Shown piece by piece: positions 4,497 through 29,026 of a stretch of 33,672 nucleotides of DNA. The position numbers and the translations under genes are program-made. Each line of letters opens with the position of its first letter. Position 1 is the first letter of the stretch. The DNA is taken from the NCBI GenBank assembly GCA_937961665.1, contig CALGMO010000071.1, positions 1-33,672 of the forward strand, read 5' to 3'. The notes under the pieces are model-generated. The model made no database searches. It saw only the letters and a program-made list of their open reading frames with translations, and was not told the origin of the DNA. The DNA is from an uncultured Fimbriimonadaceae bacterium. Lineage in GTDB: Bacteria > Armatimonadota > Fimbriimonadia > Fimbriimonadales > Fimbriimonadaceae.

Positions 4497-4967
4497 ATGG
4501 ACCGGCCGAGCTGGGACGCCTATTTCATGCAGATCGCGCACTTGGTGAGCACGCGGGCCACGTGCCCCCGCCGCAGCGTGGGGGCCGTCGTCGTGCGCGA
4601 CCGCCAGATCGTGGCGACCGGGTACAACGGCGCCCCCCGAGGCCTTCCCCACTGCCCCGAGGGCGGCCCGGAGCGCGACTGGCCCGAAGGCTGCATGATG
4701 AACGGCCACTGCATCCGCTCGCTGCACGCCGAGCAGAACGCCCTGCTGCAGGCGGCTCGCATCGGCGTGTCGTGTGAGGGCGCGACCATGTACGTCACGT
4801 GCCAGCCGTGCAACACGTGCGCGAAGATGATCATCAACGCCGGTGTTCGACGGGTGATCTACGAGGGAGACTATCCCGACCCGTTCTCGCTCGAGCTGTT
4901 CCGGCTTTCCGCGATGGAGGTGTTCCGATACCGCGAGGGATCCCTCGAGCAGGTGGATCTCGGTTGA
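4497..4967 (+). CDS. dCMP deaminase, ComEB/zinc-dependent family
   Basis: A cytidine/deoxycytidylate deaminase of 156 residues. The zinc site is complete: His77 and Glu79 in HAEQNA, and Cys105 and Cys108 in CQPCNTC. Further conserved Cys/His (Cys23, His52, Cys53, Cys66, Cys72) resemble the second structural zinc site of dCMP deaminases. By family it converts dCMP to dUMP for dTTP synthesis in the cytoplasm. The start at 4497 is chosen because GGAGG (4484-4488) lies 8 bases upstream; an in-frame ATG at 4482 is possible but has no such site. Its TGA overlaps the TTG start of the next gene, making it the first gene of a coupled run. The ComEB annotation in Bacillus reflects homology, not evidence of competence here. 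Confidence 0.9.
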   Translation: MDRPSWDAYFMQIAHLVSTRATCPRRSVGAVVVRDRQIVATGYNGAPRGLPHCPEGGPERDWPEGCMMNGHCIRSLHAEQNALLQAARIGVSCEGATMYVTCQPCNTCAKMIINAGVRRVIYEGDYPDPFSLELFRLSAMEVFRYREGSLEQVDLG

Positions 4968-6286
4968 GCGCCCCTGTCCGGGTTCTGTGGGCGTTGGCGG
5001 CGCTCTTGGCGCTGGCCGGGTGCGGTCCGGTCGCCAACGAGGTCGCCGGCCGGTGGGAGGGCTTCACCGACGGCGGCTACCGCTACGTTCTGGTGCTCGA
5101 TGCGGGCGGCGTCGGCAAGATGAGCAAGCTGGGCGGGCCGGCGGGGTTCCGCGAAACCAAGATCCGCTGGGCGCTCGATTCCGGCTCCGTGGTGGTGCGG
5201 TCGGAAGCCGGCTCGGAGTTCCGGTGGGTGCCGTCGGGGAACCGGCTCGTGGCGAGGGACTCCGGCTTCGAGCTGCATCGGAGCGGCCCCCTCGCGGGCT
5301 ACCGCTACCCCTTGGCCGCGGCGGTCGTGGCGCTCCTCGCCACCCTGGCGCTCACCCCGTTCGTCAAGCGGCTCGCCGAGCGGTTCGGCGCGATCGACGA
5401 CCCCAAGGGCGACGAGCGGAGGGTTCACCGAACGCCGATCCCCCGCTGGGGCGGCATCGCGATCTTCGGCGGCATCCTCCTGGCGCTCTTCGCCGTGCTT
5501 CCCGCGGCGTTCCCCGCCGCCCGGCCTTTCCCACCCTATCTGGTGGCGATGCTCGCGATCGGCGCGGCCATCATGGTGTTCGGCGCCCTCGACGACCTGT
5601 ACCAGTTCCGCGCCCTGTGGCAGATGCTGTTTCTCCTGGCGGCGGGAGTCGCCGTCCAGTTCTTCTACTCCGGCGGGGACCGAGTCCAGATCAGCGGGAT
5701 CGTCGCGCCGTTCTCCGGCCAGCCGGGCCGTTGGGTGCCGTTCGGGTGGGCGGCCGTGCCGATCACCGCGCTGTACATCTTCGTCGTGACGAAGACGATG
5801 GACACGATCGACGGCCTGGACGGCCTCGCAGCCGGAATCGCCGCCATCGCGGCCAGCACGCTCGCCGTCATCGCCGTGTACGAGGGTCAGCCTCGGGTCG
5901 CGATCGTCGTGGCGGCCATCGCGGGCGCCTCACTCGGCTTCCTGCGCCACAACTTCAACCCGGCGAAGATCTTCATGGGCACCGGAGGCGCGCAGGTCCT
6001 GGGCTTCCTTCTGGCCTGCGTGAGCATCGTCGGGGCGTTCAAAACGGCGGCCGCCGTGGCGATGCTCGTTCCGATGCTGGTGTTCAGCGTGCAGCTTTTC
6101 GACGCGGCGTTCGTGGTCGTGCGCCGGATCCGCAGCCGGCAGCCGATCACCAAGGCCGACAAGAGCCACATCCACCACACGCTGCTCGGCATGGGGCTGA
6201 CCCAGAGGCAGGTGGTGGGCATCCTCTACCTCGTGGACGCGATCCTCTGCGCGCTCCTCCTCATCGGAATCCGACTCTATGGCTAA
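4964..6286 (+). CDS. WecA/TagO-like phosphoglycosyltransferase fused to an N-terminal lipoprotein domain
   Basis: A 440-residue protein starting at TTG, which overlaps the deaminase stop as TTGA. Residues 1-20 are a lipoprotein signal with lipobox LAGC (Cys20). Residues 21-108 form a Gly-rich beta-type domain (GRWEG, YVLVLDAGG), presumably periplasmic. From about 115 on it is an MraY/WecA-family enzyme with about ten membrane helices: RRVHRTPIPRWGG (152-164), LDDLYQFR with Asp210/Asp211, MDTIDGLDGLAAG (279-291) and the C-terminal HIHH motif (402-405). By family it moves a HexNAc-1-phosphate onto undecaprenyl phosphate. The family's MGD-x-GS motif reads MGTGGA (338-343), so an Asp that binds Mg2+ in MraY is Thr340. 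Neighbours WecB and UppP fit the role. Topology (N-terminus outside) agrees with MraY. Confidence 0.85.
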   Translation: MSAPVRVLWALAALLALAGCGPVANEVAGRWEGFTDGGYRYVLVLDAGGVGKMSKLGGPAGFRETKIRWALDSGSVVVRSEAGSEFRWVPSGNRLVARDSGFELHRSGPLAGYRYPLAAAVVALLATLALTPFVKRLAERFGAIDDPKGDERRVHRTPIPRWGGIAIFGGILLALFAVLPAAFPAARPFPPYLVAMLAIGAAIMVFGALDDLYQFRALWQMLFLLAAGVAVQFFYSGGDRVQISGIVAPFSGQPGRWVPFGWAAVPITALYIFVVTKTMDTIDGLDGLAAGIAAIAASTLAVIAVYEGQPRVAIVVAAIAGASLGFLRHNFNPAKIFMGTGGAQVLGFLLACVSIVGAFKTAAAVAMLVPMLVFSVQLFDAAFVVVRRIRSRQPITKADKSHIHHTLLGMGLTQRQVVGILYLVDAILCALLLIGIRLYG

Positions 6287-7415
6287 GCCCCGCATCGCCC
6301 TCGTCGTCGGCACCCGGCCGGATGCGATCAAGTCCGCCCCGGTCGTGCTCGCCCTGCGCCGCTTCCCCGAGCTCTGCGAAACGCTGCTGGTCTCCACCGG
6401 GCAGCATCGGGAGATGCTCGACCAGGCGCTGGGCGCCTTCGGGTTGGACCCCGACCTCGACCTCGGCATCATGAAGCCGGGCCAGTCGCTCGCCAGAATC
6501 TCCTGCGCCGCGCTGGAGGGCCTCGACCGAGCGATGGAGGACCTGCGGCCGGACTACGTGATGGCCCAAGGCGACACCACCACGACGTTCATCGCGAGCC
6601 TCGCGGCCTTCTACCGCAAGATTCCGTTCGGGCACATCGAAGCCGGCCTTCGGACGGGCGACCTGATGAACCCGTTCCCCGAGGAGTTCAACCGCCGCGC
6701 CGCGGCCATCGTCGCCGCCCAGCACTTCGCCCCAACCCGGTGGGCCAAGGAGAACCTTCTGGCCGAGCGGTGCGACCCGTCCCGCATCCTGGTGACGGGC
6801 AACACCGGCATCGACGCCGTGCTTGCGGTCGCCGAGCGGGAGCCGCAGAACTGGTTCCCAGAGCACCAAGGCCGCGTGCTGCTGGTCACGACCCACCGAA
6901 GGGAGAACTGGGGCGAGCCCCAGGCGGCGATCGCCAGGGCGCTCCGAAGGCTGGCCGAACGGTACGACGACCTGCTGGTCGCCGTCGCGATGCACCGCAA
7001 CCCGATCGTCCGCGAGACGCTCCTCCCGATCCTCGGCGATGCCCCGCGCACCGTGCTGATGGAACCGCCGGAGTACGCGCGCTTCGTGAAGCTCATGCAG
7101 CGTGCCACGCTCATCCTCACCGATTCGGGAGGCGTTCAGGAGGAGGCGCCGGCGTTCGGCGTTCCCGTGCTCGTGCTGCGGGAGACCACGGAGCGGCCCG
7201 AGGGCGTGGAGGCGGGCACGGCCAGACTGGTCGGCACGGACGAGGAGCGGGTCTTCCTCGAGGCCGCGCGGCTCCTCGACGACCCCTCCGCCTACGCCGA
7301 GATGGCCCAGGCCGTCAGCCCCTACGGCGACGGAAGAGCCGCCGAGCGAACGGCGAGCGCCGTGCTGAGGTTCCTTGGGCAGGACGCTCTCGAGGTGGAG
7401 GAATGGGCACACTAG
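6279..7415 (+). CDS. wecB: UDP-N-acetylglucosamine 2-epimerase, non-hydrolysing
   Basis: A 378-residue GT-B-fold enzyme that interconverts UDP-GlcNAc and UDP-ManNAc in the cytoplasm. Visible signatures are the N-terminal GTRPDAIKSAPV (11-22; the family usually has Glu in place of the Asp), QGDTTTTFIASLAAFY, HIEAGLRTGD, PEEFNRR, VTTHRRENWG and the C-terminal TDSGGVQEEA with RETTERPEG. The ATG lies inside the end of the WecA-like gene (8-base overlap) and the 3' end overlaps uppP by 13 bases, so the three are surely co-transcribed. The product UDP-ManNAc is the donor for the TagA/WecG-type transferase encoded at 22290-23039, which is the likely consumer. Confidence 0.94.
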   Translation: MAKPRIALVVGTRPDAIKSAPVVLALRRFPELCETLLVSTGQHREMLDQALGAFGLDPDLDLGIMKPGQSLARISCAALEGLDRAMEDLRPDYVMAQGDTTTTFIASLAAFYRKIPFGHIEAGLRTGDLMNPFPEEFNRRAAAIVAAQHFAPTRWAKENLLAERCDPSRILVTGNTGIDAVLAVAEREPQNWFPEHQGRVLLVTTHRRENWGEPQAAIARALRRLAERYDDLLVAVAMHRNPIVRETLLPILGDAPRTVLMEPPEYARFVKLMQRATLILTDSGGVQEEAPAFGVPVLVLRETTERPEGVEAGTARLVGTDEERVFLEAARLLDDPSAYAEMAQAVSPYGDGRAAERTASAVLRFLGQDALEVEEWAH

Positions 7416-8272
7416 AAGCGATCGTCATCGGCATCGTGCAGGGGCTGACCGAGTTCCTGCCGATCAGCAGCACCGCGCACATCCGCGTGCTGCCGGCGCT
7501 CCTCTCCTGGCCCGACCCCGGAGCGGCGTACACCGCGGTGATCCAGCTCGGCACGCTGTTGGCCGTCCTGATCTACTTCCGCCGAGAGCTGGCCCACGCG
7601 TTCGGCGCCTGGCTCCGCAGCCTCTACGACAAGGAGGCCCGGCAGACCACCGACGCCCGCATCGGGTGGGGCATCTTCCTCGGCACGATTCCGATCGTGG
7701 TGCTGGGCGTCGCCTTCAAGCGACAGATCGAGTCCGACCTGCGGTCGCTGTACGTAGTGGCCGGCGCGCTGATCCTGATGGGCATTGTCCTGGCGCTCGC
7801 GGACCGTTGGGGCAGACGCCGCCGCAGCGAGGCGGACGCCAAGCCGATCGACGGGCTCTGGGTCGGGTTGTTCCAAGCGATCGCCCTGATCCCGGGGGCT
7901 AGCCGGAGCGGCAGCACGATCGCCGGAGCGATGCTGTGCGGGTTCGATCGGGCCGCCGCCGCCCGCTACTCCTTCCTGCTCTCGGTGCCGAGCGTGTTCG
8001 CCGCGGCGGTGCTCGAGGTCTGGAGCGAGAGGGCGCACCTCGCCGACCTCGGCTGGTCCGCCGTCCTCTGGGCGAACGTGGCGGCGTTCGTCGTAGGCTA
8101 CGCCTCCATCGCGTTCCTCATCCGCTGGCTGCAGACCCGCAGCCTCGCTCCGTTCGTCGTGTACCGCATCCTGCTTGGTCTGGCGCTGCTCGGGCTGATG
8201 GCCCAGGGCACCCTCGCTCCCGACGCCGGCCTGGCGACGGAGCAGCCCACCGTCTCCTCCGACTCCCGATGA
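7403..8272 (+). CDS. uppP: Undecaprenyl pyrophosphate phosphatase
   Basis: An integral membrane protein of 289 residues of the BacA/UppP family, which converts undecaprenyl pyrophosphate back to the monophosphate carrier used for cell-wall and surface glycans. The two signature regions are present: QGLTEFLPISSTAH (13-26; Gln13 and Glu17 of the E/Q-xxx-E motif, His26) and PGASRSGSTI (164-173; Arg168). The ATG is inside the end of wecB, with a purine-rich GGTGGAGG directly upstream. The stop overlaps the pth start as ATGA. Its place beside a WecA-like enzyme suggests that this operon both charges and recycles the lipid carrier. Overproduction of this family gives bacitracin resistance in other bacteria; nothing here shows a resistance role. 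Confidence 0.94.
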   Translation: MGTLEAIVIGIVQGLTEFLPISSTAHIRVLPALLSWPDPGAAYTAVIQLGTLLAVLIYFRRELAHAFGAWLRSLYDKEARQTTDARIGWGIFLGTIPIVVLGVAFKRQIESDLRSLYVVAGALILMGIVLALADRWGRRRRSEADAKPIDGLWVGLFQAIALIPGASRSGSTIAGAMLCGFDRAAAARYSFLLSVPSVFAAAVLEVWSERAHLADLGWSAVLWANVAAFVVGYASIAFLIRWLQTRSLAPFVVYRILLGLALLGLMAQGTLAPDAGLATEQPTVSSDSR

Positions 8273-9356: not shown

Positions 9357-11093
9357 ATGCTGACATCCCTCGTAGTGGCCGCGGTCTGGGCGGCGCCCGT
9401 CAACTGGATCGACGGAGATCGGGACCTCGACGCCGCGGCTTGGACCGGAGTAGGCCTGCAGTCGGCCGCCAACTTCGACGTCTCCGGACTGCCCTTCCGA
9501 AAGGGCCTCCGCGTGTCCTTCCGCTCCGAGCCCGGCGCCGCGCCGTGGAGCATCCAGCTCGGCCGGCTCGTCCAGCACCCCGTCCGGAGGGGCGACACCG
9601 TCTACTTCCGAGCATGGCTCCGCAGCCAGCAGCGGTGCCCCACGACGTTCATCTTCGAACAGGCGTCGGAGCCGCACGCGAAATACCTCTCGGCGGTCGC
9701 GAGCCCCGGTCCCGAGTGGCGCGAGTTCCGGTTCGCCGGACGGGCCGGCCGGGACTTCGAGCCTGGCCAGACGCAGCTGAAGTTCTTCTTCGGTGGCTCG
9801 TCGGGAACCGTGGAGATCGCAGGCGTGCGCGTGACCAACCTGGGTCCGAACCCGCCGGCGGGCGCGATCCAGGAGACCCTGGTGCTGTACCCCGCGGGAG
9901 ACCCTCCGGCCTCATGGTACCGCGAGGCAGACAGGCGCATCGACCGCATCCGGAAGGGCGACCTCCTGGTGCGCGTCGTGGACGACCGTGGACGGCCGGT
10001 GGCGGACGCAGAGGTACGCGTGACGCAGCGTCGGCACGCATTCCGCTTCGGCACCGCCGTCCCGGCCGCCCGCATCGTGGAGCGCTCGCCGGACGGGGAC
10101 CGGTTCCGCGCGGTCGTGGAGAGGCTGTTCAACACGGTGACGTTCGAGAACGACCTCAAGTGGCAGGCTGTGGACTGGGGGATCAACCAGCAGGCCATCG
10201 ACGAAGCCATCCGCTGGCTGAGCGCCCGCGGAATCGAGATCCGTGGCCACTGCCTCGTTTGGGGAGACTACAGCAACCTCCCCCGGTTCGTGCGGGACTT
10301 GGACAAGGACGGCAAGATCGAGGCCCTCAAGCAGAGAATCGCCCAGCAGACCGCCCGCTACAAGGGCAAGGTCTACGTCTGGGACGTCGTGAACGAGGCC
10401 GTCACGAACACGCGGTTCTGGGACGACATCGGCTGGGAGTGGTTCGAGCGATCGTTCCAGCTGACGAAGGAAGCCGACCCGGATGTCCTACTCGCCTACA
10501 ACGACTTCTCCATCACTACCGAGGCGGCCACGGGACCGGCGCACCGGAAGAAGGCCATCGAGCTGGCCAAGAGGGTCCGCCAGTCGGGCAATCCGATTGA
10601 CATCTTCGGCGACCAGGCGCACCTCGGGCTGCCCGCCACCAGGCCGGACCGCTGCATGGAGATCTGGGACGAGATCGTCCGCGAGACCGGTTGCGACATC
10701 GAGATCACCGAGTTCGACTTCACGACGTTCAACGACGAGATCCAAGCGCGCTTCGTGCGCGACTACCTCACCGCCGCCTTCAGCCACCCCAAGGTGGTGG
10801 GCTTCATGATGTGGGGCTTCTGGGAGGGCTCCCACTGGCTGGCCGACCGCGGGGGCGCGATGATCCGGCGCGACTGGACCTGGAGGCCGGGCATGAGGGT
10901 GTTCGAGGACCTCGTCAAGAAGCGCTGGTGGACGAACGAGACGCGGAGGACCTCCAACAACGGGCGGGCCAACGTGCGGGCGTTCTACGGCACCCACGTG
11001 GTCACGGTGACGAAGGGCGGGTCCACAGCCGAGGCCACCATCGAGCTCAGGCCGGGATCCAAGGGAGAGGTCGTCGTCCGCCTCAGCCGCTGA
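9357..11093 (+). CDS. GH10 endo-beta-1,4-xylanase with N-terminal carbohydrate-binding-like domain
   Basis: A 578-residue glycoside hydrolase family 10 enzyme. The catalytic acid/base is Glu347 in WDVVNEAV and the nucleophile Glu452 in IEITEFDF. Other GH10 marks are FNTVTFENDLKW, GIEIRGHCLVWG and the late MMWGFWEGSHW. Residues about 20-165 look like a beta-sandwich binding module (CBM4/9-like), followed by a short beta-rich linker domain (LLVRVVDDRGRPVADAEV, about 200-220). About 75 residues follow the barrel. By family it cleaves xylan backbones outside the cell, but the N-terminal hydrophobic segment (MLTSLVVAAVWA) has no positive charge, so the export signal is weak. GAGGTG lies 5 bases before the ATG. 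A hairpin terminator follows. The convergent neighbour is a secreted serine hydrolase. Confidence 0.93.
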   Translation: MLTSLVVAAVWAAPVNWIDGDRDLDAAAWTGVGLQSAANFDVSGLPFRKGLRVSFRSEPGAAPWSIQLGRLVQHPVRRGDTVYFRAWLRSQQRCPTTFIFEQASEPHAKYLSAVASPGPEWREFRFAGRAGRDFEPGQTQLKFFFGGSSGTVEIAGVRVTNLGPNPPAGAIQETLVLYPAGDPPASWYREADRRIDRIRKGDLLVRVVDDRGRPVADAEVRVTQRRHAFRFGTAVPAARIVERSPDGDRFRAVVERLFNTVTFENDLKWQAVDWGINQQAIDEAIRWLSARGIEIRGHCLVWGDYSNLPRFVRDLDKDGKIEALKQRIAQQTARYKGKVYVWDVVNEAVTNTRFWDDIGWEWFERSFQLTKEADPDVLLAYNDFSITTEAATGPAHRKKAIELAKRVRQSGNPIDIFGDQAHLGLPATRPDRCMEIWDEIVRETGCDIEITEFDFTTFNDEIQARFVRDYLTAAFSHPKVVGFMMWGFWEGSHWLADRGGAMIRRDWTWRPGMRVFEDLVKKRWWTNETRRTSNNGRANVRAFYGTHVVTVTKGGSTAEATIELRPGSKGEVVVRLSR

Positions 11094-11192: not shown

Positions 11193-13601
11193 TCAGCGCC
11201 AGGCCGACTGGTCCGGGTCCAGACTCCAGTCGTTTCCGAAGAACCCGGTGGCGAGAATCGCGGACACTCCCTCGCGCCAGTACCCCGGCCCGAAGACCGT
11301 CCAGTCCGGATAGGCGATGCCCGGAGACAGGTAAGGCAACCGATCCGTCTGACGCATGCCCACGATGTCGGTGCCGCCGACCACCGCCGCCATGCCCTCG
11401 ACCTCGCCCGCCTTGGGGTAGGCGAACAGCACCGAATACCCGGCTCCCCGCCAGGCCCGATCCCCTACGGCCAGAATTCCTCGGTCCACGCGGACCGGGC
11501 ACCTCGGGTCGACGAGGCGACGGATCGCCGCGTTCGTGCGCTGGTTGCCGTACAGGATCACGTTCCGACCCTTCAGCCGCTCCGGGGTCGCCTCAACGTC
11601 CGGCAGCAGGTCGACGGCTCCGTTCCCTCGGTACTGCCACTGCTCCGAGTCGTAGCGCGCCTTGGCGAACGACCAGGCGTTCTCCTCGGGCGTGCCCGAA
11701 GTGCCGTACACGAAGGCCATGTTCCTCTGGAAGGCCAGCTTCAGCGGGCCTCCGCGGTGCGGACCCTTCTCCCATCGCGAGGGTTGGCGTGCCACCCGCC
11801 AACCACCCCCGGTCTTGAGCAGAACGGCCCGCACGCCCTTCTCCGGCAGCTGAAGGGTCTGGCCGTCGAGGATCAAGGTCGTCGGTCGCTGGTCCATCCG
11901 GCCGAGGTCGAGGGCCAGCTCGGCGACGTTGGACGTGCTGCCCTGGATGCGATCCTCAGCCCGCTCGAGCGTCACCGAGGAGAACTCGAGGCAGCGCTCC
12001 TGCTGGAGCACCTCCACCCAGTTGCTCCGTGAGCTCACGGCGGGGTTCGCGGTCACGAACTCGACGCGGCGAACCTTGGCGGGGTCGGGGATGCGCTTCT
12101 GCTGGAAGAAGGCGAACATCTCCGGCCAATCCACCGAGTCGTCGCCCCACCAGTGGGAGCCGCCGGGCTTCTCGTAGTAGCGGAGATCCGGGTGGAACGC
12201 GGACAGCACCTCCCGCATGCGCCGAGCCTCCGTCACCGGAACAGACTCGTCGGCGTCTCCGTGCAGGATGTACACGCCGTAGTGCAGCGCGTTGCGCACC
12301 AAGCCGAGCGTGTCGCTCGGAGTTCCCGCCCGCCTCAACAGCGAGGCGACGGGGTCTTCCGGCTTGCCGGGGTCGACCAAGCCGGCATAGGTTCGAAAGC
12401 TGATCCAGCCGGCGGCCGGACCGATCGCCGCGAACAGGTCCGGGTGAGTCAGGCCGATGTGCCACGTGCCGTGGCCGCCCATGCTGTGCCCGGTCAGGAT
12501 CACCCGGCTCGGATCGTGCGGGTAGGCCCGCTTGGCGATCTCCAGAACCTCCAAGCCGTCCATCCGCCCCCAATCCTCCCAGTCGAAGCCGTAAGGCCGC
12601 CGGTTGGTGGCCGCGACGAGCGTCAGCCAGTCCTTCGGGCGGTACGCCCGCGCCTGATTGATGGCCTCGACGCTCGCGCCGTGAACCGAGAGCACCAGCG
12701 CATTGTCCGGCCCGGGCTTCTGCGACGGGGTGACGGCGTAGTACTGCAGGCTCCCGTCGATGCGGCTGAAGAACGTCCGGCGGTGAACCTGGTTGGGCTG
12801 AACGACCTGCAGGTGCAAGCTCCCAGCCTCAGACTTCCCGCCGCCCCATTGCACGGAGAGCCGCGCCTCGACCGCACCCGGCTTCGCATCCTTCGGCACA
12901 GGAACCCGGAACGGCACCTTCCGCGCGGCGATCGGCGGGATTGCGGGGAGCTTCGTTCGCAGCGTCCGACCACCGAGCGCACACTCCAGAACGGCGTCCC
13001 GCACGGCCCTCCCGCCCGTGTTCTGCACCACGACGGCGGCCCAGACGCTGCCCCCGGCCTCGGTTGTCAGCAGGTCCGGCACCGTCGGGTCGGAAACGTC
13101 GAGCCACAGGCCTGCGGGCGCGGGAACCAGCCTGGCGGCGAGCCGCCCCCGACCCGCCGAGAACAGGAACGTGTTGGGGCCCTGGCGCAGAGCCACCGGC
13201 AGGTTGAGGTAGCCGTCACCGTAGACGTCCCCTCCACGCGGCTCGCCGTTCACGTAGACCATCCCATGCCCGGAAGCCCGCAGAAGATACGTGCCCGCGG
13301 ATGGAAGATCGACCGTGCACAGGAGATATCCGCTTTGGAACGCACGCTGGTCGAACCCCTGCTCGCCGGCGGAAACCTCCCGCCACTCGGCCTCCCCCCG
13401 ATCCGATGCCAGCCGCTGTCCAGCCTGGGGCGTGCCGAGACGGTTCCGAACGAGCAGATCCACGATCAGGTCCGTGGGGGCGGCGTTCCGACCTGCCACC
13501 GTCACGCGCGGAATCGCCAGACCGCGGTCGATCACGATCGGCTCCGCCTGCCCGACGAGGGTTGATCCTAGCGCCATCGTCGCCAAACTCCAAACCACCA
13601 T
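11193..13601 (-). CDS. Large secreted alpha/beta-hydrolase (prolyl-oligopeptidase/esterase type)
   Basis: An 802-residue exported protein. Residues 1-19 form a hydrophobic signal (cleavage probably after GQA). A beta-rich region (about 20-280) precedes an alpha/beta-hydrolase domain with Ser373 in GHSMGGHG, Asp451 in HGDADESVPV and His483 in GGSHWWG: a complete catalytic triad in the usual order. The C-terminal 310 residues have no obvious family; they include FVYGTSGTPEENAWS and a stretch ending NVILYGNQRTN, a pattern seen in the tail of some large secreted S9-like hydrolases. Substrate cannot be told: peptide, polysaccharide ester or feruloyl ester are all possible. Convergence with a GH10 xylanase favours a carbohydrate esterase. 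There is no Shine-Dalgarno sequence; a TACAAT box sits 8 bases upstream. Confidence 0.8.
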   Translation of the reverse strand: MVVWSLATMALGSTLVGQAEPIVIDRGLAIPRVTVAGRNAAPTDLIVDLLVRNRLGTPQAGQRLASDRGEAEWREVSAGEQGFDQRAFQSGYLLCTVDLPSAGTYLLRASGHGMVYVNGEPRGGDVYGDGYLNLPVALRQGPNTFLFSAGRGRLAARLVPAPAGLWLDVSDPTVPDLLTTEAGGSVWAAVVVQNTGGRAVRDAVLECALGGRTLRTKLPAIPPIAARKVPFRVPVPKDAKPGAVEARLSVQWGGGKSEAGSLHLQVVQPNQVHRRTFFSRIDGSLQYYAVTPSQKPGPDNALVLSVHGASVEAINQARAYRPKDWLTLVAATNRRPYGFDWEDWGRMDGLEVLEIAKRAYPHDPSRVILTGHSMGGHGTWHIGLTHPDLFAAIGPAAGWISFRTYAGLVDPGKPEDPVASLLRRAGTPSDTLGLVRNALHYGVYILHGDADESVPVTEARRMREVLSAFHPDLRYYEKPGGSHWWGDDSVDWPEMFAFFQQKRIPDPAKVRRVEFVTANPAVSSRSNWVEVLQQERCLEFSSVTLERAEDRIQGSTSNVAELALDLGRMDQRPTTLILDGQTLQLPEKGVRAVLLKTGGGWRVARQPSRWEKGPHRGGPLKLAFQRNMAFVYGTSGTPEENAWSFAKARYDSEQWQYRGNGAVDLLPDVEATPERLKGRNVILYGNQRTNAAIRRLVDPRCPVRVDRGILAVGDRAWRGAGYSVLFAYPKAGEVEGMAAVVGGTDIVGMRQTDRLPYLSPGIAYPDWTVFGPGYWREGVSAILATGFFGNDWSLDPDQSAWR

Positions 13602-21747: not shown

Positions 21748-22293
21748 TCAGCTCCTCGGTTCCTTCCAGACGACCTCGGGCGTCTCCGACTGGGCGTTCT
21801 CTGCGCGTGCGGCCATGAACAGCCAGTCGGCCAGGCGGTTGACGAACACAGCCGGCTCCTTTCGCCGGCCCGTCTCCTCCACCCAGGCCCAGACGTCCCG
21901 CTCCGCTCGGCGGCACACCGCGCGCGCCAAGTGCAGACGACTCGCCGACTCGCACCCGCCCGGCAGGATGAAGTTGCGGAGAGGCTCCACCACGGCCTCC
22001 AGCTCGTCCATCGACTGCTCCAGACGACGCACGTCCTCCTCGGAGATCGGGTTCGGGCTCTTCCGGTCGGGCGGCGAGGCCAGCTCCGCCCCCAGGCAGA
22101 ACAGGCGCTGCTGCACCCACTCGATCGTCCTCGACACCGCCGGGTCGCTGGCCACCACGCGAGCCCAACCGAGGAAAGCGTTGACCTCGTCGATCCCGCC
22201 GATCGCCCGCATCGTCGCGCCGGACTTGGGAACGCGACCGCCCCCGATCAGGCCGGTCTCGCCGTCGTCGCCGGTGCCCGTGTAGATCCTCAT
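21748..22293 (-). CDS. PduO-type cob(I)alamin adenosyltransferase
   Basis: A 181-residue cytoplasmic enzyme that makes adenosylcobalamin from cob(I)alamin and ATP. The N-terminal ATP-binding motif TGTGDDGETGLIGGGRVPK (5-23) is present. Other marks are GGIDEVNAFLGWA, the QQRLFCLGAELASP block and the C-terminal CRRAERDVWAW...NRLADWLFMAAR helices of the PduO family. The ATG overlaps the stop of the TagA/WecG gene (ATGA) and the 3' end is 6 bases from the LolA-like gene. No cobalamin-dependent enzyme is encoded in the window, so the use of the cofactor is not shown. Confidence 0.9.
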   Translation of the reverse strand: MRIYTGTGDDGETGLIGGGRVPKSGATMRAIGGIDEVNAFLGWARVVASDPAVSRTIEWVQQRLFCLGAELASPPDRKSPNPISEEDVRRLEQSMDELEAVVEPLRNFILPGGCESASRLHLARAVCRRAERDVWAWVEETGRRKEPAVFVNRLADWLFMAARAENAQSETPEVVWKEPRS

Positions 22294-23039
22294 GGCCTGT
22301 ACCTCAGAACGCGCCACAGGAAGACAGGGAGCTGCCTCGCCTTCGACAGCTTCTTCGGGTTCAGCAGCGAGCGCCACAGCCATTCCAAGCACAGTCGCTG
22401 CACCCACCTCGGAGCCCGACGGACCCGCCCACTGTGAACGTCCAGGCTGCCACCGACGCCCATCGCGACCTTCGCCCGGATGATGGAGCGCGTGGCCCAG
22501 ATGAACTTCTCCTGCCGCGGCATACCCATGGCTACGAACAGAACGTCGGGCCTGGTCTCGGCGATCTCCCGGGCGACCACCTCGTCGCTCTCCGCAGGAA
22601 AGTAGCCGTGTCGGCTGCCGACGATGTTGCACCCTGGGTGCCGTAGCCGCAGGCGCTCGGCGGCCATCTCGGCCACACCGGGCGCGGAACCCAGGAGAAA
22701 CACCCGCCAACCCTCCTCGGAACTCCGCTGGCAGACCAGGTCGACGAGGTCCACACCGCTGACCCTCTGCCCGATCGGCTTGCCGGCCCTCCGGGCTGCC
22801 CAAAGAACCCCCACGCTGTCGGGCGTCACCAAGTCCGCCTGCCGGACGATGCTCGCGAACTCCGGGTCCTCCTGGGCCAACACGAGCCCGGCCGCGTCGG
22901 CCGTCACCACGACGCGAGGCTCGCCCTCCCGAACGAAGCGGGCGATCCGCTCCATCGCCTCGCCGACTCCGACCCGGTCGACGGGAAACCCCAGGATCTC
23001 CACGCAGTCCCGCGTTCCAAGGTCCACGGCGGTCTCCAT
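22290..23039 (-). CDS. TagA/WecG-family N-acetylmannosamine transferase (GT26)
   Basis: A 249-residue cytoplasmic, membrane-associated glycosyltransferase. Family marks: a VVVTADAAGLVLA strand (43-55), LVTPDSVGV with the conserved Asp74, GSAPGVAEMAAERL, the MGMPRQEKFI motif and VGGSLDVHSGRVRRAP. The basic/aromatic C-terminus (LEWLWRSLLNPKKL) fits the membrane-binding tail of TagA. By family it adds ManNAc (or ManNAcA) from UDP to an undecaprenyl-PP-GlcNAc acceptor. The WecA-like and WecB proteins at 4964-7415 could supply acceptor and donor. It is the first gene of the operon running on to feoB and overlaps the next gene as ATGA. A TACACT box lies 9 bases before the ATG. Confidence 0.9.
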   Translation of the reverse strand: METAVDLGTRDCVEILGFPVDRVGVGEAMERIARFVREGEPRVVVTADAAGLVLAQEDPEFASIVRQADLVTPDSVGVLWAARRAGKPIGQRVSGVDLVDLVCQRSSEEGWRVFLLGSAPGVAEMAAERLRLRHPGCNIVGSRHGYFPAESDEVVAREIAETRPDVLFVAMGMPRQEKFIWATRSIIRAKVAMGVGGSLDVHSGRVRRAPRWVQRLCLEWLWRSLLNPKKLSKARQLPVFLWRVLRYRP

Positions 23040-25192: not shown

Positions 25193-26253
25193 GCACGCCC
25201 GACCCAACTCCCGAAGAGAGAGTCGTACCGGCCAATCATCGCCTCGAGGGTGAACCCCTCGCGGTACCTCGTCAGAGCGGCCGCCCCCATCTCCGACCTG
25301 CGTTCGGGGTCGCGGGCCAACGCGTCCAGCGCCTCGCCGAGGGCCTCCGGACTCGCCTTGGGGACGAGCAGGCCGGTCCGCGCGTCGTCGACCGCTTCCG
25401 GTATCCCCCCGACCCTCGACGCGACAATGGGCTTGCCCAGCGACATCGCCTCCAGCGCCGAGAACGGAAACGCCTCCTCCCACACGCTGGGAATCACGAC
25501 CGCGTCCACGGCCAGTACGGCGTCGGCGACGGCCTCCGTGCGACCGTGGAGCACGACGGGACGACCCTGGGCTTCCGCCTCCAGACGCCTGCGCAAGGGT
25601 CCGTCCCCAAACGCGTGCAGGGTCCAAGGGGCTCCCGGCCGCGCCGCCCGAATCGCGTGAACGAGCCCCTTCTCCTCCACCAGCCGCCCGAAGAACCCCA
25701 CCGCGCAATCGGAGTCGGAAATCCCGAGGCGGCGCCGAGCCTCGGCGCGCGAGACGGTCGGTTCGAGGGCGGGAACGCCGGACAGCACGGTGTGGACCCT
25801 GTCCTCTGGAAAGCCGCTCTCCACCAGCGACCTCCGCACGGCCTCGGACACGCCGATCCACCGATCGATCCTCCGGCAGAGGGCCAGCGCCTTGCGGCGC
25901 GCATAGGGAAGCGCGAGGTGCCTGGTGGCCACGACCCGGCAGCCCTCGGCGCTCGCCGCCAAGGCCGGCACCAGGAAGTCCGGGCTGAAGTGCACGTGCA
26001 CGAGGTCCGGTCGAGCGGCGCGGAAGAGCCTTCGAAAGGCCGGATAGGCCAGCCAGTCGTTGCGACCCCTCAGCCGCCTCTCCACGACCGGGACGGTGGC
26101 ACGGGACGCCACGGGAGTGCCCGGAGCGGCGACCAAGGAAGCCTGCCACCCGCGGCTCCGCAGCCCCTCGGCGAGCCACACCACGTACCGCTCGATGCTT
26201 CCCCACTCGCGGAGACTGGTGGCGACCTCGAGGAGCCTCGGACCGTCAGCCAA
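25189..26253 (-). CDS. GT4-family glycosyltransferase
   Basis: A 354-residue GT-B enzyme. The N-terminal opening RLLEVATSLREWGSIERYV is the usual GT4 acceptor-domain start. The C-terminal domain shows VGFFGRLVEEKGL (185-197), FGDGPLRRRLEAEA, and the E-x7-E donor motif with Glu260 and Glu268 in WEEAFPFSALEAMSLGKP, then SRVGGIPEAV. The sugar and acceptor cannot be told; envelope polysaccharide is likely. The start is TTG at 26253, overlapping the esterase stop by 8 bases; this start gives the normal N-terminus. It is the last gene of a leftward NIL, esterase, GT4 run and shares its CTAG end with kdsA. Confidence 0.85.
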   Translation of the reverse strand: MADGPRLLEVATSLREWGSIERYVVWLAEGLRSRGWQASLVAAPGTPVASRATVPVVERRLRGRNDWLAYPAFRRLFRAARPDLVHVHFSPDFLVPALAASAEGCRVVATRHLALPYARRKALALCRRIDRWIGVSEAVRRSLVESGFPEDRVHTVLSGVPALEPTVSRAEARRRLGISDSDCAVGFFGRLVEEKGLVHAIRAARPGAPWTLHAFGDGPLRRRLEAEAQGRPVVLHGRTEAVADAVLAVDAVVIPSVWEEAFPFSALEAMSLGKPIVASRVGGIPEAVDDARTGLLVPKASPEALGEALDALARDPERRSEMGAAALTRYREGFTLEAMIGRYDSLFGSWVGRA

Positions 26254-27142
26254 GGTGAACCCGCATCCAGTCGAGGTTGTTGGGGACCATGTCGGGCGTC
26301 CACTCGTGGCCGACGGGGTACCGGATCAGCCGCTTCGGGCCTGGCAGCGCCTCGTAGAGGGCCTCCACCCGCTCGGGCCTCGACGCCGGGTCCCGCTCGC
26401 CCAGGCTCGCTTGCGTCGGGACCCTGCACAGCGGAGCCAAGTGGGTTGTGTCGAAGTAGCTCAGCGTGTGGGAGACTCTCTCATAGCCCAGCGGCACCGA
26501 ATCCGCGTAGTCCTGGAGCTCCTTGAGCGGATACCTCAGCAGGTCGCGGACGGCGATCTCCCTCGTTCGGCAGAGGAACGGCATGTCGGCGCAGACTGCC
26601 TTCACGACCGGGCAGATCGCGCCGAGCCACACCGCCATCCCGCCCCCTTGGCTCATGCCGGCTGCGGCGATGCGACCCTCGTCCACCTCGACCAGGGCCT
26701 GGAGAACCCGGGCCGCGAGGTAGGCGTTCTGCGTCATCCGCCGAAAGATCCAGGTCTCCGGAGTATCGATGCCCTCGGCGAAGTAGCCCTGCGAGGGTTT
26801 GTACCGCTCTTCATGAAAAGCGGGAAGCCCAAAGTGGTTGAAGCTGAGGCTGGCGAATCCCTCGCGCACGCCGTACTCGTTGGGTGGCACGGAAGAGCGC
26901 CCGTAAGGCGGAAGCCAGAGGAAAGCTGGGACGCGGCGGGCGCCGGGCGGATAGGCGTACCAGCCGTGCAGCTCCTCCCCGCCGATCCCCTCGAACCGGA
27001 TCTCCTCGCACAGGTGTCCGGATGCCAGCGGCCTAGGGTTCAGATCCCGCTTGTACCAGAGCCGGGCCGATGCGGCCTCCTCGGCCACTCGGGCCCAGAA
27101 CTCCTCCAGGTCCTCCGGCCGCTCGACGAGCTCGAAGATCAT
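26246..27142 (-). CDS. Acetyl xylan esterase-like hydrolase (AXE1/CE7 type)
   Basis: A 298-residue alpha/beta-hydrolase without a signal peptide, so probably cytoplasmic. The CE7 pattern is visible: the LPPYGR oxyanion strand (77-82), a GYF...IDTPETWIFRRM block, AAGMSQGGGMA with Ser164, VCADMPFLC, Asp251 in LGERDPASRPE and His279 in GHEWTPD. CE7 enzymes remove acetyl groups from short xylo-oligosaccharides and cephalosporins. Here it could deacetylate sugars after uptake or act on a glycan precursor. The ATG overlaps the stop of the NIL-domain gene (ATGA) and the 3' end overlaps the GT4 gene, so the three are translated as a set. Confidence 0.87.
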   Translation of the reverse strand: MIFELVERPEDLEEFWARVAEEAASARLWYKRDLNPRPLASGHLCEEIRFEGIGGEELHGWYAYPPGARRVPAFLWLPPYGRSSVPPNEYGVREGFASLSFNHFGLPAFHEERYKPSQGYFAEGIDTPETWIFRRMTQNAYLAARVLQALVEVDEGRIAAAGMSQGGGMAVWLGAICPVVKAVCADMPFLCRTREIAVRDLLRYPLKELQDYADSVPLGYERVSHTLSYFDTTHLAPLCRVPTQASLGERDPASRPERVEALYEALPGPKRLIRYPVGHEWTPDMVPNNLDWMRVHLG

Positions 27143-27378
27143 GCCCCGAGGGCGCGTTCCTGTGCCTCGACGTGCAGTCCGGTGGTCATCAGCCAGGCCG
27201 TGGCCCTCTGGATCTCCTCGACGGGCCCCTCCAGCACGATCTGCACCCAGCCGAAGTCCGTGTCCACGTTCGCCTTGACAAGGTTCACTTGGACCTCGAA
27301 GTCCCTCGCGAGCCGCCAGAGCCACGGCTCCTTCACCGCTTCCTTCCCCGCCGTCAGATTGAGAGTCGCCTTCGCCAC
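27139..27378 (-). CDS. Small stand-alone NIL-domain protein
   Basis: A 79-residue protein beginning at GTG, with GGAGG 4 bases upstream; no ATG gives a sensible start. The sequence follows the NIL domain found at the end of methionine ABC transporter ATPases (MetN) and beside some ferredoxins: a first strand (ATLNLTA), a long helix with WLWRLARDFEVQVNLVKANV, then FGWVQIVLEGPVEEIQRATAWL. In MetN this domain binds methionine and gates transport; in short proteins its role is not known. Here it is the first gene of the CE7 and GT4 run, an unusual context. Assignment is by pattern only. The gene is easy to miss because of its size and GTG start. Confidence 0.7.
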   Translation of the reverse strand: MAKATLNLTAGKEAVKEPWLWRLARDFEVQVNLVKANVDTDFGWVQIVLEGPVEEIQRATAWLMTTGLHVEAQERALGA

Positions 27379-27425
27379 CTTTCCTCCGATCCGTTGCGGC
27401 CCCTCCCGGGACCCTCCGCAGGCTG

Positions 27426-27431
27426 GATTGT
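27426..27431 (-). promoter_or_regulatory. Candidate -10 box (TACAAT) of the NIL-esterase-GT4 operon
   Basis: TACAAT on the minus strand lies about 48 bases before the GTG at 27378, in the 148-bp region shared with leuA. No convincing -35 is visible. Confidence 0.35.
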
Positions 27432-27470
27432 ACCTGTCCGGGGCCTCAGGGCAGAGCCCGGGCCCTTGCC

Positions 27471-27476
27471 GTATAA
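27471..27476 (+). promoter_or_regulatory. Consensus -10 box (TATAAT) of leuA
   Basis: A perfect TATAAT stands out in very GC-rich DNA, 50 bases before the leuA ATG. No matching TTGACA is seen 16-18 bases upstream. The leader of about 45 bases holds GAGGAG (27507-27512), rather far from the ATG for a ribosome-binding site. No leader peptide rich in Leu codons was seen. Confidence 0.55.
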
Positions 27477-27526
27477 TGTTCGGTATCCCCACGGCCCTTC
27501 GCGGGAAGAGGAGTCTCCGAACAGCG

Positions 27527-29026
27527 ATGCGAAAGATCCACATTCTCGACACGACTCTGCGCGACGGCGAGCAGTCACCGGGCGCCAGCCTCACCACGCA
27601 CGAGAAGCTGGAGATCGCCCACCAACTGGCCAGGCTCAACGTCGACGTGATCGAGGCCGGCTTCCCGTGTTCCTCCCCCGGCGACTTCGAGGCGGTCCGG
27701 CTGGTGGCCAAGGAAGTCAAGGGACCGACGATCACGGCCCTCGCGCGGGCCGTGAAGGCGGACATCGACGCCGTGTGGGAGGCGATTCGGGTGGCCGAGA
27801 AGCCGCGGATCCACGTGGTCCTCGGAAGCTCCGACATCCACTTGGCGCACAAGTTCCGGCGCAGCCGCGAGGAGGTGCTTCAGATCGGCGTCGAGGCGGT
27901 GAAGTACGCCAAATCGCTCTGCCCCGAGGTCCAGTACTCCACCGAGGACGCGTCCCGGAGCGACCGCCGCTACCTGTTCCAAGTCATCGAGGCCGTGATC
28001 GACGCCGGGGCCACCGTGGTGAACATCCCCGACACCGTCGGGTGGGCCGTCCCCGCGCAGTGGGGGCGCCTGATCGCGGACATCCGCAAGAACGTTCCGA
28101 ACATCGATCGCGCAATCCTCAGCGTGCACTGCCACAACGACCTCGGAATGGCCGTGGCCAACTCCCTAGCCGCCGTGAAGGCCGGGGCGCAGCAGGTCGA
28201 GTGCACCGTCAACGGCATCGGCGAGCGGGCAGGCAACGCCTCGCTCGAGGAGATCGTGATGGCCCTGAAGGTGCGGCGGGACTATTTCCGCGCGGAGACG
28301 GACATCGTCACGCGCGAGCTCACCCGCACCAGCAAGATGGTGAGCCGTCTGACGGGCCTGCTGGTCGCTCGCAACAAGGCGGTCGTCGGGGCCAACGCCT
28401 TCGCCCATTCGTCGGGCATCCACCAGGACGGCGTGCTGAAGCACCGCAAGAACTACGAGATCATCCAGCCCGAGGAGGTCGGAGCGGACGAGACGCAGAT
28501 CGTGCTGACCGCCCGATCCGGCAGACACGCCTTGAAGCACAGGCTCGAGACCCTCGGCTTCGTGGTGACCCAGCAGGAGCTGGAGAACATCCACCCGCGC
28601 TTCCTCGCGCTGGCGGACGCCAAGAAGGAGGTCTACGACGACGACCTCTACGCCCTGATGGCGGACGAGAGGGGCAGCGACCACCAAAAGGTCAAGCTCC
28701 TGTCGTTCCACGCCTCGACCGGCTCCGACGAGGCCCCGAGAGCAAAGGTTCGGCTGTCCATCCGCGGGCAGGAGATGGAGCGGGAGGCGTCCGGCGACGG
28801 CCCCGTGGACGCGGCCTTCCGCGCGATCGACGAGATGACCCGCGAGCAGGTCGTGCTGAAGGAGTACCGGATGCAGGCCGCGACCGCCGAGAAGGCCGCC
28901 TTGGGCCAGGCTACGGTGGTGCTGGAGCTGAATGGGCGAACGGCCACCTCGCAGGGCGCCTCGACGGACATCGTTGAGGCCAGTCTGCGGGCGTACGTCA
29001 ACGCTCTCAACCGCCTCCTTCCGTAG
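27527..29026 (+). CDS. leuA: 2-isopropylmalate synthase
   Basis: A 499-residue enzyme joining acetyl-CoA and 2-oxoisovalerate, the first committed step of leucine synthesis. The catalytic barrel shows TTLRDGEQSPGASL (about 9-22), HCHNDLGMAVANSLAA with the metal-binding histidines, and GIGERAGNASLEE. AHSSGIHQDGVLKH and the DDDLYALM linker follow. The C-terminal LeuA regulatory domain (about 370-499; VRLSIRGQEMER, ending SLRAYVNALNRLL) is complete, so feedback by leucine is likely. The ATG is chosen because the family begins KIHILDTTLRDG; a much longer reading frame upstream overlaps genes on the other strand and was rejected. It stands alone here, without leuBCD or ilv genes. Confidence 0.96.
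   Translation: MRKIHILDTTLRDGEQSPGASLTTHEKLEIAHQLARLNVDVIEAGFPCSSPGDFEAVRLVAKEVKGPTITALARAVKADIDAVWEAIRVAEKPRIHVVLGSSDIHLAHKFRRSREEVLQIGVEAVKYAKSLCPEVQYSTEDASRSDRRYLFQVIEAVIDAGATVVNIPDTVGWAVPAQWGRLIADIRKNVPNIDRAILSVHCHNDLGMAVANSLAAVKAGAQQVECTVNGIGERAGNASLEEIVMALKVRRDYFRAETDIVTRELTRTSKMVSRLTGLLVARNKAVVGANAFAHSSGIHQDGVLKHRKNYEIIQPEEVGADETQIVLTARSGRHALKHRLETLGFVVTQQELENIHPRFLALADAKKEVYDDDLYALMADERGSDHQKVKLLSFHASTGSDEAPRAKVRLSIRGQEMEREASGDGPVDAAFRAIDEMTREQVVLKEYRMQAATAEKAALGQATVVLELNGRTATSQGASTDIVEASLRAYVNALNRLLP

Follow-up and report, generated by a model that had tools for sequence, protein, structure and literature searches.

The open frame at 4964-6286 (+) of the DNA stretch analysed here (the window, 33,672 nucleotides from the 2.88 Mb draft genome of an uncultured Fimbriimonadaceae bacterium) raises the question of how an enzyme of the MraY/WecA family could work when the aspartate expected to hold its metal ion has been replaced. 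Single mutants supply most of the argument over what the conserved Lys, Asn and Asp residues do in MraY, WecA and DPAGT1, enzymes that are antibiotic and disease targets.

As the first-pass annotation had read from the letters alone, the frame (440 aa in translation) starts at a TTG codon overlapping the stop of an upstream ComEB-like deaminase gene, and joins a lipoprotein signal, a beta-type domain and a membrane enzyme. The signal peptide covers residues 1–19 (4964-5020, +; in the related genome G002 a GTG start lies in the same place) and is followed by the lipobox cysteine Cys20 (5021-5023, +), which stands in LAGC here and in IAGC in G002. An AlphaFold model based on a 92-sequence alignment (pLDDT 87) contains a signal helix, an eight-strand barrel (residues 29–107, 5048-5284, +) and then the helices of the PNPT (MraY/WecA/TagO) fold (residues 110–440, 5291-6283, +). 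Membership of the PNPT superfamily is supported by the PF00953 score (106.9 bits against a gathering threshold of 27, E 1e-30) and by Foldseek, in which the model matched MraY and DPAGT1 with E values from 5e-12, for MraY, to 2e-7 and TM scores by target length of 0.65–0.82. The protein falls below the cut-offs of both equivalog families, with 95.8 against 326 for WecA (TIGR02380), a cut-off that a canonical Bacillota relative also misses with 149, and 75.1 against 192 for MraY (TIGR00445).

Several hallmarks of the superfamily are unchanged and form invariant columns of the 92-sequence alignment. These are the DD pair Asp210-Asp211 (5591-5596, +), the uridine-site motif D283-G-L-D286 (5810-5821, +), of which D283, G284, D286 and G287 are invariant, and the HIHH loop H402-H405 (6167-6178, +), with H402 and H404 invariant and H405 nearly so. 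The retention of Asp210, Asp211 and Asp283 that had been noted earlier thus holds, but Asp280, counted among the retained residues, is itself a change, as canonical enzymes have Asn at this position.

Alignment to MraY and DPAGT1 places Thr340 (ACC, 5981-5983, +), within the motif MGTGGA, where the Mg-ligand Asp is found (DPAGT1 Asp252, AaMraY Asp265), as the first-pass annotation had stated. It is one of four substitutions. Gln220 (CAG, 5621-5623, +) stands where canonical enzymes have Lys (by register, Lys125 of DPAGT1), Lys277 (AAG, 5792-5794, +) replaces a canonical Asn (DPAGT1 Asn182), and Asp280 (GAC, 5801-5803, +) replaces the Mg-ligand Asn (DPAGT1 Asn185, AaMraY Asn190). The Gln220 and Lys277 changes had been overlooked, so that what was taken for a single lost Asp is a metal site rewritten by four coupled substitutions. 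Instead of the Asn and Asp that form the Mg-ligand pair of the PNPT superfamily, the enzyme has Asp280 and Thr340, and Gln220 stands in place of the conserved acceptor-side Lys or Arg. In the model Lys277 and Asp280 are both helical; they share one helix, at a spacing of three residues.

Our motif alignment took in 245 loci. Position 220 is Q in 132/132 variant sequences versus K or R in 99/99 canonical ones, position 277 is K in 132/132 versus N in 98/99 (one His), position 280 is D in 132/132 versus N in 99/99, and position 340 is, by grouping, T in 132/132 versus D in 99/99. These are the only columns of 335 in which the two groups share no residue, and no sequence mixes the pairs by combining D280 with D340 or N280 with T340. 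A sequencing or assembly error at MGD, which would have explained the changed motif trivially, is excluded by the 132 aligned sequences with Thr. The variant group does not keep strictly to Thr at 340: beyond the 132, five further variants have a one-residue deletion, one has Ala and one has Ser. Position 224, one turn from 220, also changes, from Gln to Leu, Ile or Met. Register with DPAGT1 was counted from the pairwise alignment, and the context at position 220 is free of gaps. A shifted register, suggested by a pairwise HMMER alignment that pairs Gln220 with an MraY Gln four residues past the Lys, was rejected because both Gln220 and Gln224 are present in L156, L161, L217, L218, L221 and L224, which align without gaps to canonical sequences.

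Three of the four changed sites correspond to residues of DPAGT1 with a measured role in catalysis or Mg binding, namely K125, N185 and D252. The Mg2+ ion of human DPAGT1 is coordinated by the Asn185 and Asp252 side chains, by two oxygens of the phosphates and by two water molecules; Lys125 guides the acceptor phosphate, and both Lys125 and Asn185 lie next to that phosphate (PMC6218659). Less than 2.2% activity remained in K125A, K125E and K125Q, 0.7% in N185D and 1.2% in N185A; D252A retained 7%, and D252N was five times more active (PMC6218659). The catalytic residues listed for B. subtilis MraY likewise include K116, N171 and D231 (PMC5039524), and D265 of A. aeolicus MraY binds Mg (PMC6606608).

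The divergent subfamily that had been suspected from this one sequence is real and of phylum scale. Of 43 Armatimonadota families read, 19 have the variant (QKD) type, 22 the canonical one and 3 a third type, QNN, and two types coexist in one family; since other phyla entered through Bacillota and Actinomycetota matches only, the count of 19 families is no evidence of phylum specificity. The 59 Bacillota sequences and one Actinomycetota sequence were canonical, except for one Bacillota sequence with Glu for Asp. The QNN type comprises four sequences from three other families and lacks both the Lys and the Asp: L218, L221, L224 and L220 (genomes G210, G209, G211 and G208) have Gln for Lys, a deletion or Ser for the Mg-Asp, and both Asn. 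They may be steps, side branches or a third active-site state of the rewrite. The few relatives on plasmids and phages came mostly from Bacillota or from phages recorded with Bacillota hosts, and viral contigs yielded no relative. Armatimonadota also contain long PNPT paralogues (L268, L270, L273, L246 and L216) with DNMDG for DGxDG, canonical NxxN and MGD, and a C-terminal extension; their open frames span 534–624 residues where read whole, and L216 and L246 have HTSHRL in place of the HxHH loop. No description of the variant enzyme was found among the matches listed in the open-access literature on WecA, MraY and Armatimonad.

On a tree of 99 rows from which the trait columns were left out, the Lys at 220 and the Asp at 340 are each lost in a single change, and all rows with Q220 group together (support 97/81). 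Three changes are needed for the K277 state and three for D280, always jointly, but the data do not reject a single KD clade (p-AU 0.39). An independent-pairs test on this tree found too few independent changes for significance. As the four changes map to approximately one event, their coupling mainly reflects retained common descent and not repeated covariation.

The reading that we favour over its rivals, at about even odds, is that this protein acts as a HexNAc-1-phosphate transferase from UDP-HexNAc, probably UDP-GlcNAc, to undecaprenyl phosphate, with a rewritten four-residue charge set in which Asp280 would serve as Mg ligand. Such an enzyme would start a surface glycan on undecaprenyl phosphate. 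In the canonical state, a Lys on the helix that follows the DD pair guides the acceptor phosphate, and Asn and Asp hold Mg2+. Here the Lys site has become Gln and the Asp site Thr, and both charges reappear on one helix as Lys277 and Asp280, so that one Lys and one Asp are present in the four-residue set of canonical and variant versions alike. Asp280 would then be the anionic Mg2+ ligand, Thr340 would be neutral and Lys277 would guide the phosphate of Und-P. The uridine-site aspartates, the DD pair and the HxH loop stay as in canonical enzymes. Because K125Q and N185D each nearly abolish DPAGT1, their equivalents having become fixed jointly with N277K and D340T points to compensation. Several observations count against this reading: N185D alone inactivates DPAGT1, so an Asp at 280 is not automatically a good ligand, the four changes trace to about one event on the tree, a few variants have Ala, Ser or a deletion at 340, and the QNN relatives persist although they lack both charges.

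The QNN sequences, which lack the Asp and gained neither new charge, favour the main rival to charge relocation, in which catalysis is free of metal or nearly so: Lys277 would replace the electrostatics of Mg2+ at the pyrophosphate and pair with Asp280, and no divalent ion would be needed. The strongest Mg ligand is gone in all variants with no other acid at its site, and the added Lys sits one turn away from the second ligand. However, an acid appears simultaneously at that second Mg-ligand position, the remaining site residues are invariant, and the compatibility of D252N with activity in DPAGT1 means that loss of the Asp does not by itself imply loss of Mg. We consider this reading unlikely. 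A wider proposition, that a phylum-scale branch of the MraY/WecA family works either without Mg2+ or with another metal geometry because the family's Lys, Mg-Asn and Mg-Asp have given way to a Lys-Asp pair on a single helix, seems to us doubtful; if it were true, the living Q-N-N relatives would represent a stage of the rewrite or a branch to its side.

That the protein is catalytically dead, or repurposed for lipid binding, flipping or regulation, is suggested by the replacement of three measured catalytic or Mg residues, including the K125Q and N185D equivalents that nearly inactivate DPAGT1. We regard this as quite unlikely, given that its genome has no other PF00953 gene outside MraY, that enzymes of this type have been kept in 19 families, all with invariant DD, DGxDGL and HxH, and that it is retained in an operon with wecB and uppP. 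The same considerations support, from sequence and gene context, an active enzyme. In DPAGT1, tunicamycin makes contacts to Asp252, Asn185 and Arg301, with its amide near Lys125 (PMC6218659). Three of the four changed sites are thus ones that the inhibitor contacts or approaches, and the rewrite might have been fixed by tunicamycin-like nucleoside antibiotics, with catalysis otherwise ordinary. Such an escape is very unlikely in our view, as the MraY-like paralogue keeps canonical NxxN and MGD and would leave the cells sensitive there, and as the contact residues are also catalytic, so that overlap is expected under any catalytic change. The position of Lys125 and Asn185 beside the acceptor phosphate in DPAGT1, and the accompanying change at position 224, would fit a relocation that suits another lipid phosphate or nucleotide sugar instead of a changed metal site; with the uridine-site residues unchanged and neighbours that act on UDP-GlcNAc (wecB) and the undecaprenyl carrier (uppP), we find a different acceptor or donor highly improbable.

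The genes that follow the transferase are wecB, a UDP-GlcNAc 2-epimerase of the same operon (6279-7415, +; TIGR00236 441.9 bits, over cut-off), and uppP, an undecaprenyl-diphosphatase (7403-8272, +; TIGR00753 255.6 bits against a cut-off of 217.5), and this order is kept in most sister genera and loci. Besides the transferase gene, the genome has a single PF00953 gene, the MraY-like one, which scores below the TIGR00445 cut-off, yet has TIGR00445 as its best family. The context fits initiation of a surface glycan of ManNAc-GlcNAc type, a substrate and activity that we infer. A WecG/TagA/CpsF-family glycosyltransferase is encoded in the same window (22290-23039, −; PF03808 211 bits), and two further copies lie elsewhere in the genome. 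Genes for a GH10-family glycosyl hydrolase (9357-11093, +) and a large S9-peptidase/esterase-type protein (11193-13601, −) adjoin on opposite strands, and a role of this pair in polysaccharide degradation is possible. The frame at 26060-29026 (+) has 988 residues, of which LeuA-type HMGL-like and LeuA_dimer domains begin only near residue 490; its first half had no Pfam match.

The lipobox-barrel fusion is found in all three genomes of the genus (G000, G001 and G002). Relative to G000, the barrel is 83% identical in G001 and 70% in G002, and the enzyme 97% and 77%. In the barrel, pN is 0.09 versus a pS of 0.41 (G000-G001) and 0.19 versus 0.47 (G000-G002), which indicates a real, constrained protein domain under purifying selection. 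This, together with the Cys and barrel being kept in three species, rules out a gene-calling artefact. The lipobox Cys is retained in G002 despite a diverged signal sequence, and the genome has one copy each of lspA and lgt; with a signal peptide and the Cys in 3/3 species, lipidation of Cys20 is plausible.

In 58 other genomes of the family and order, the enzyme begins near residue 105, and a search of these with the barrel alone gave no convincing match (best E 0.004, scattered). A lipoprotein encoded by a separate upstream gene in sister genera was considered and rejected, as in the sister loci read the deaminase and PNPT genes adjoin, with no lipoprotein gene and no room for one between them. 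Homologues that all start near residue 110, which the first-pass annotation had named as refuting its reading, are thus seen outside the genus but not inside it, and the existence of sister genera without the barrel implies that it is dispensable for this enzyme type. By sequence, the barrel matched no Pfam family and no solved chain; its predicted fold is nearest YedD, TP0435, NlpE and SP_0198 (TM 0.65–0.74), with weak E values (Foldseek E 0.007–0.024, with a model from a three-sequence alignment). We propose that this genus alone acquired, at the periplasmic N-terminus of the enzyme, a lipobox and a barrel of NlpE/YedD-like type. That this domain may sense or bind the lipid-linked product, as the first-pass annotation suggested, is a hypothesis about its function. 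Fusion and motif change had been presented as one subfamily trait; both are real, but the fusion was found in one genus only and the motif in 19 Armatimonadota families, so they are independent of each other.

A natural and widespread enzyme group bears two substitutions that nearly inactivate DPAGT1, plus new charges nearby in sequence, which makes the roles of the metal and the Lys testable by charge-swap mutants. Complete single-contig genomes exist for several relatives with the signature (e.g. L121 and L188), which makes it likely that the enzyme can be had from a cultured organism.

Compared with known systems, a catalytic Lys and a metal Asp have apparently moved to neighbouring positions within the PNPT fold. 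TagO/WecA-type enzymes (PF00953; e.g. Bacillota L050-L112) share with this protein 40–45% identity, the fold, DD, DGxDGL, the NPAKIFMG context and HxHH, and differ at the four active-site positions by K/R to Q, N to K, N to D and D to T; in this genus a lipobox and barrel are added at the N-terminus. Barrels of small envelope lipoproteins (YedD/LptY, the NlpE N-domain, TP0435 and SP_0198) resemble that addition in their lipobox and, going by its predicted fold, in their eight strands, but no sequence family links them, and here the barrel is fused by a short linker before the first membrane helix of the transferase. MraY (4J72, 5JNQ) is alike in its fold, its outside N-terminus and the equivalents of D117/D118, D193 and D196, whereas the present enzyme has Thr for Asp265, Asp for Asn190 and Gln for the conserved Lys. 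DPAGT1 (5LEV, 6BW5, 6FWZ) has the same fold with K125, N182, N185 and D252 in register, and all four are replaced here, by Q, K, D and T.
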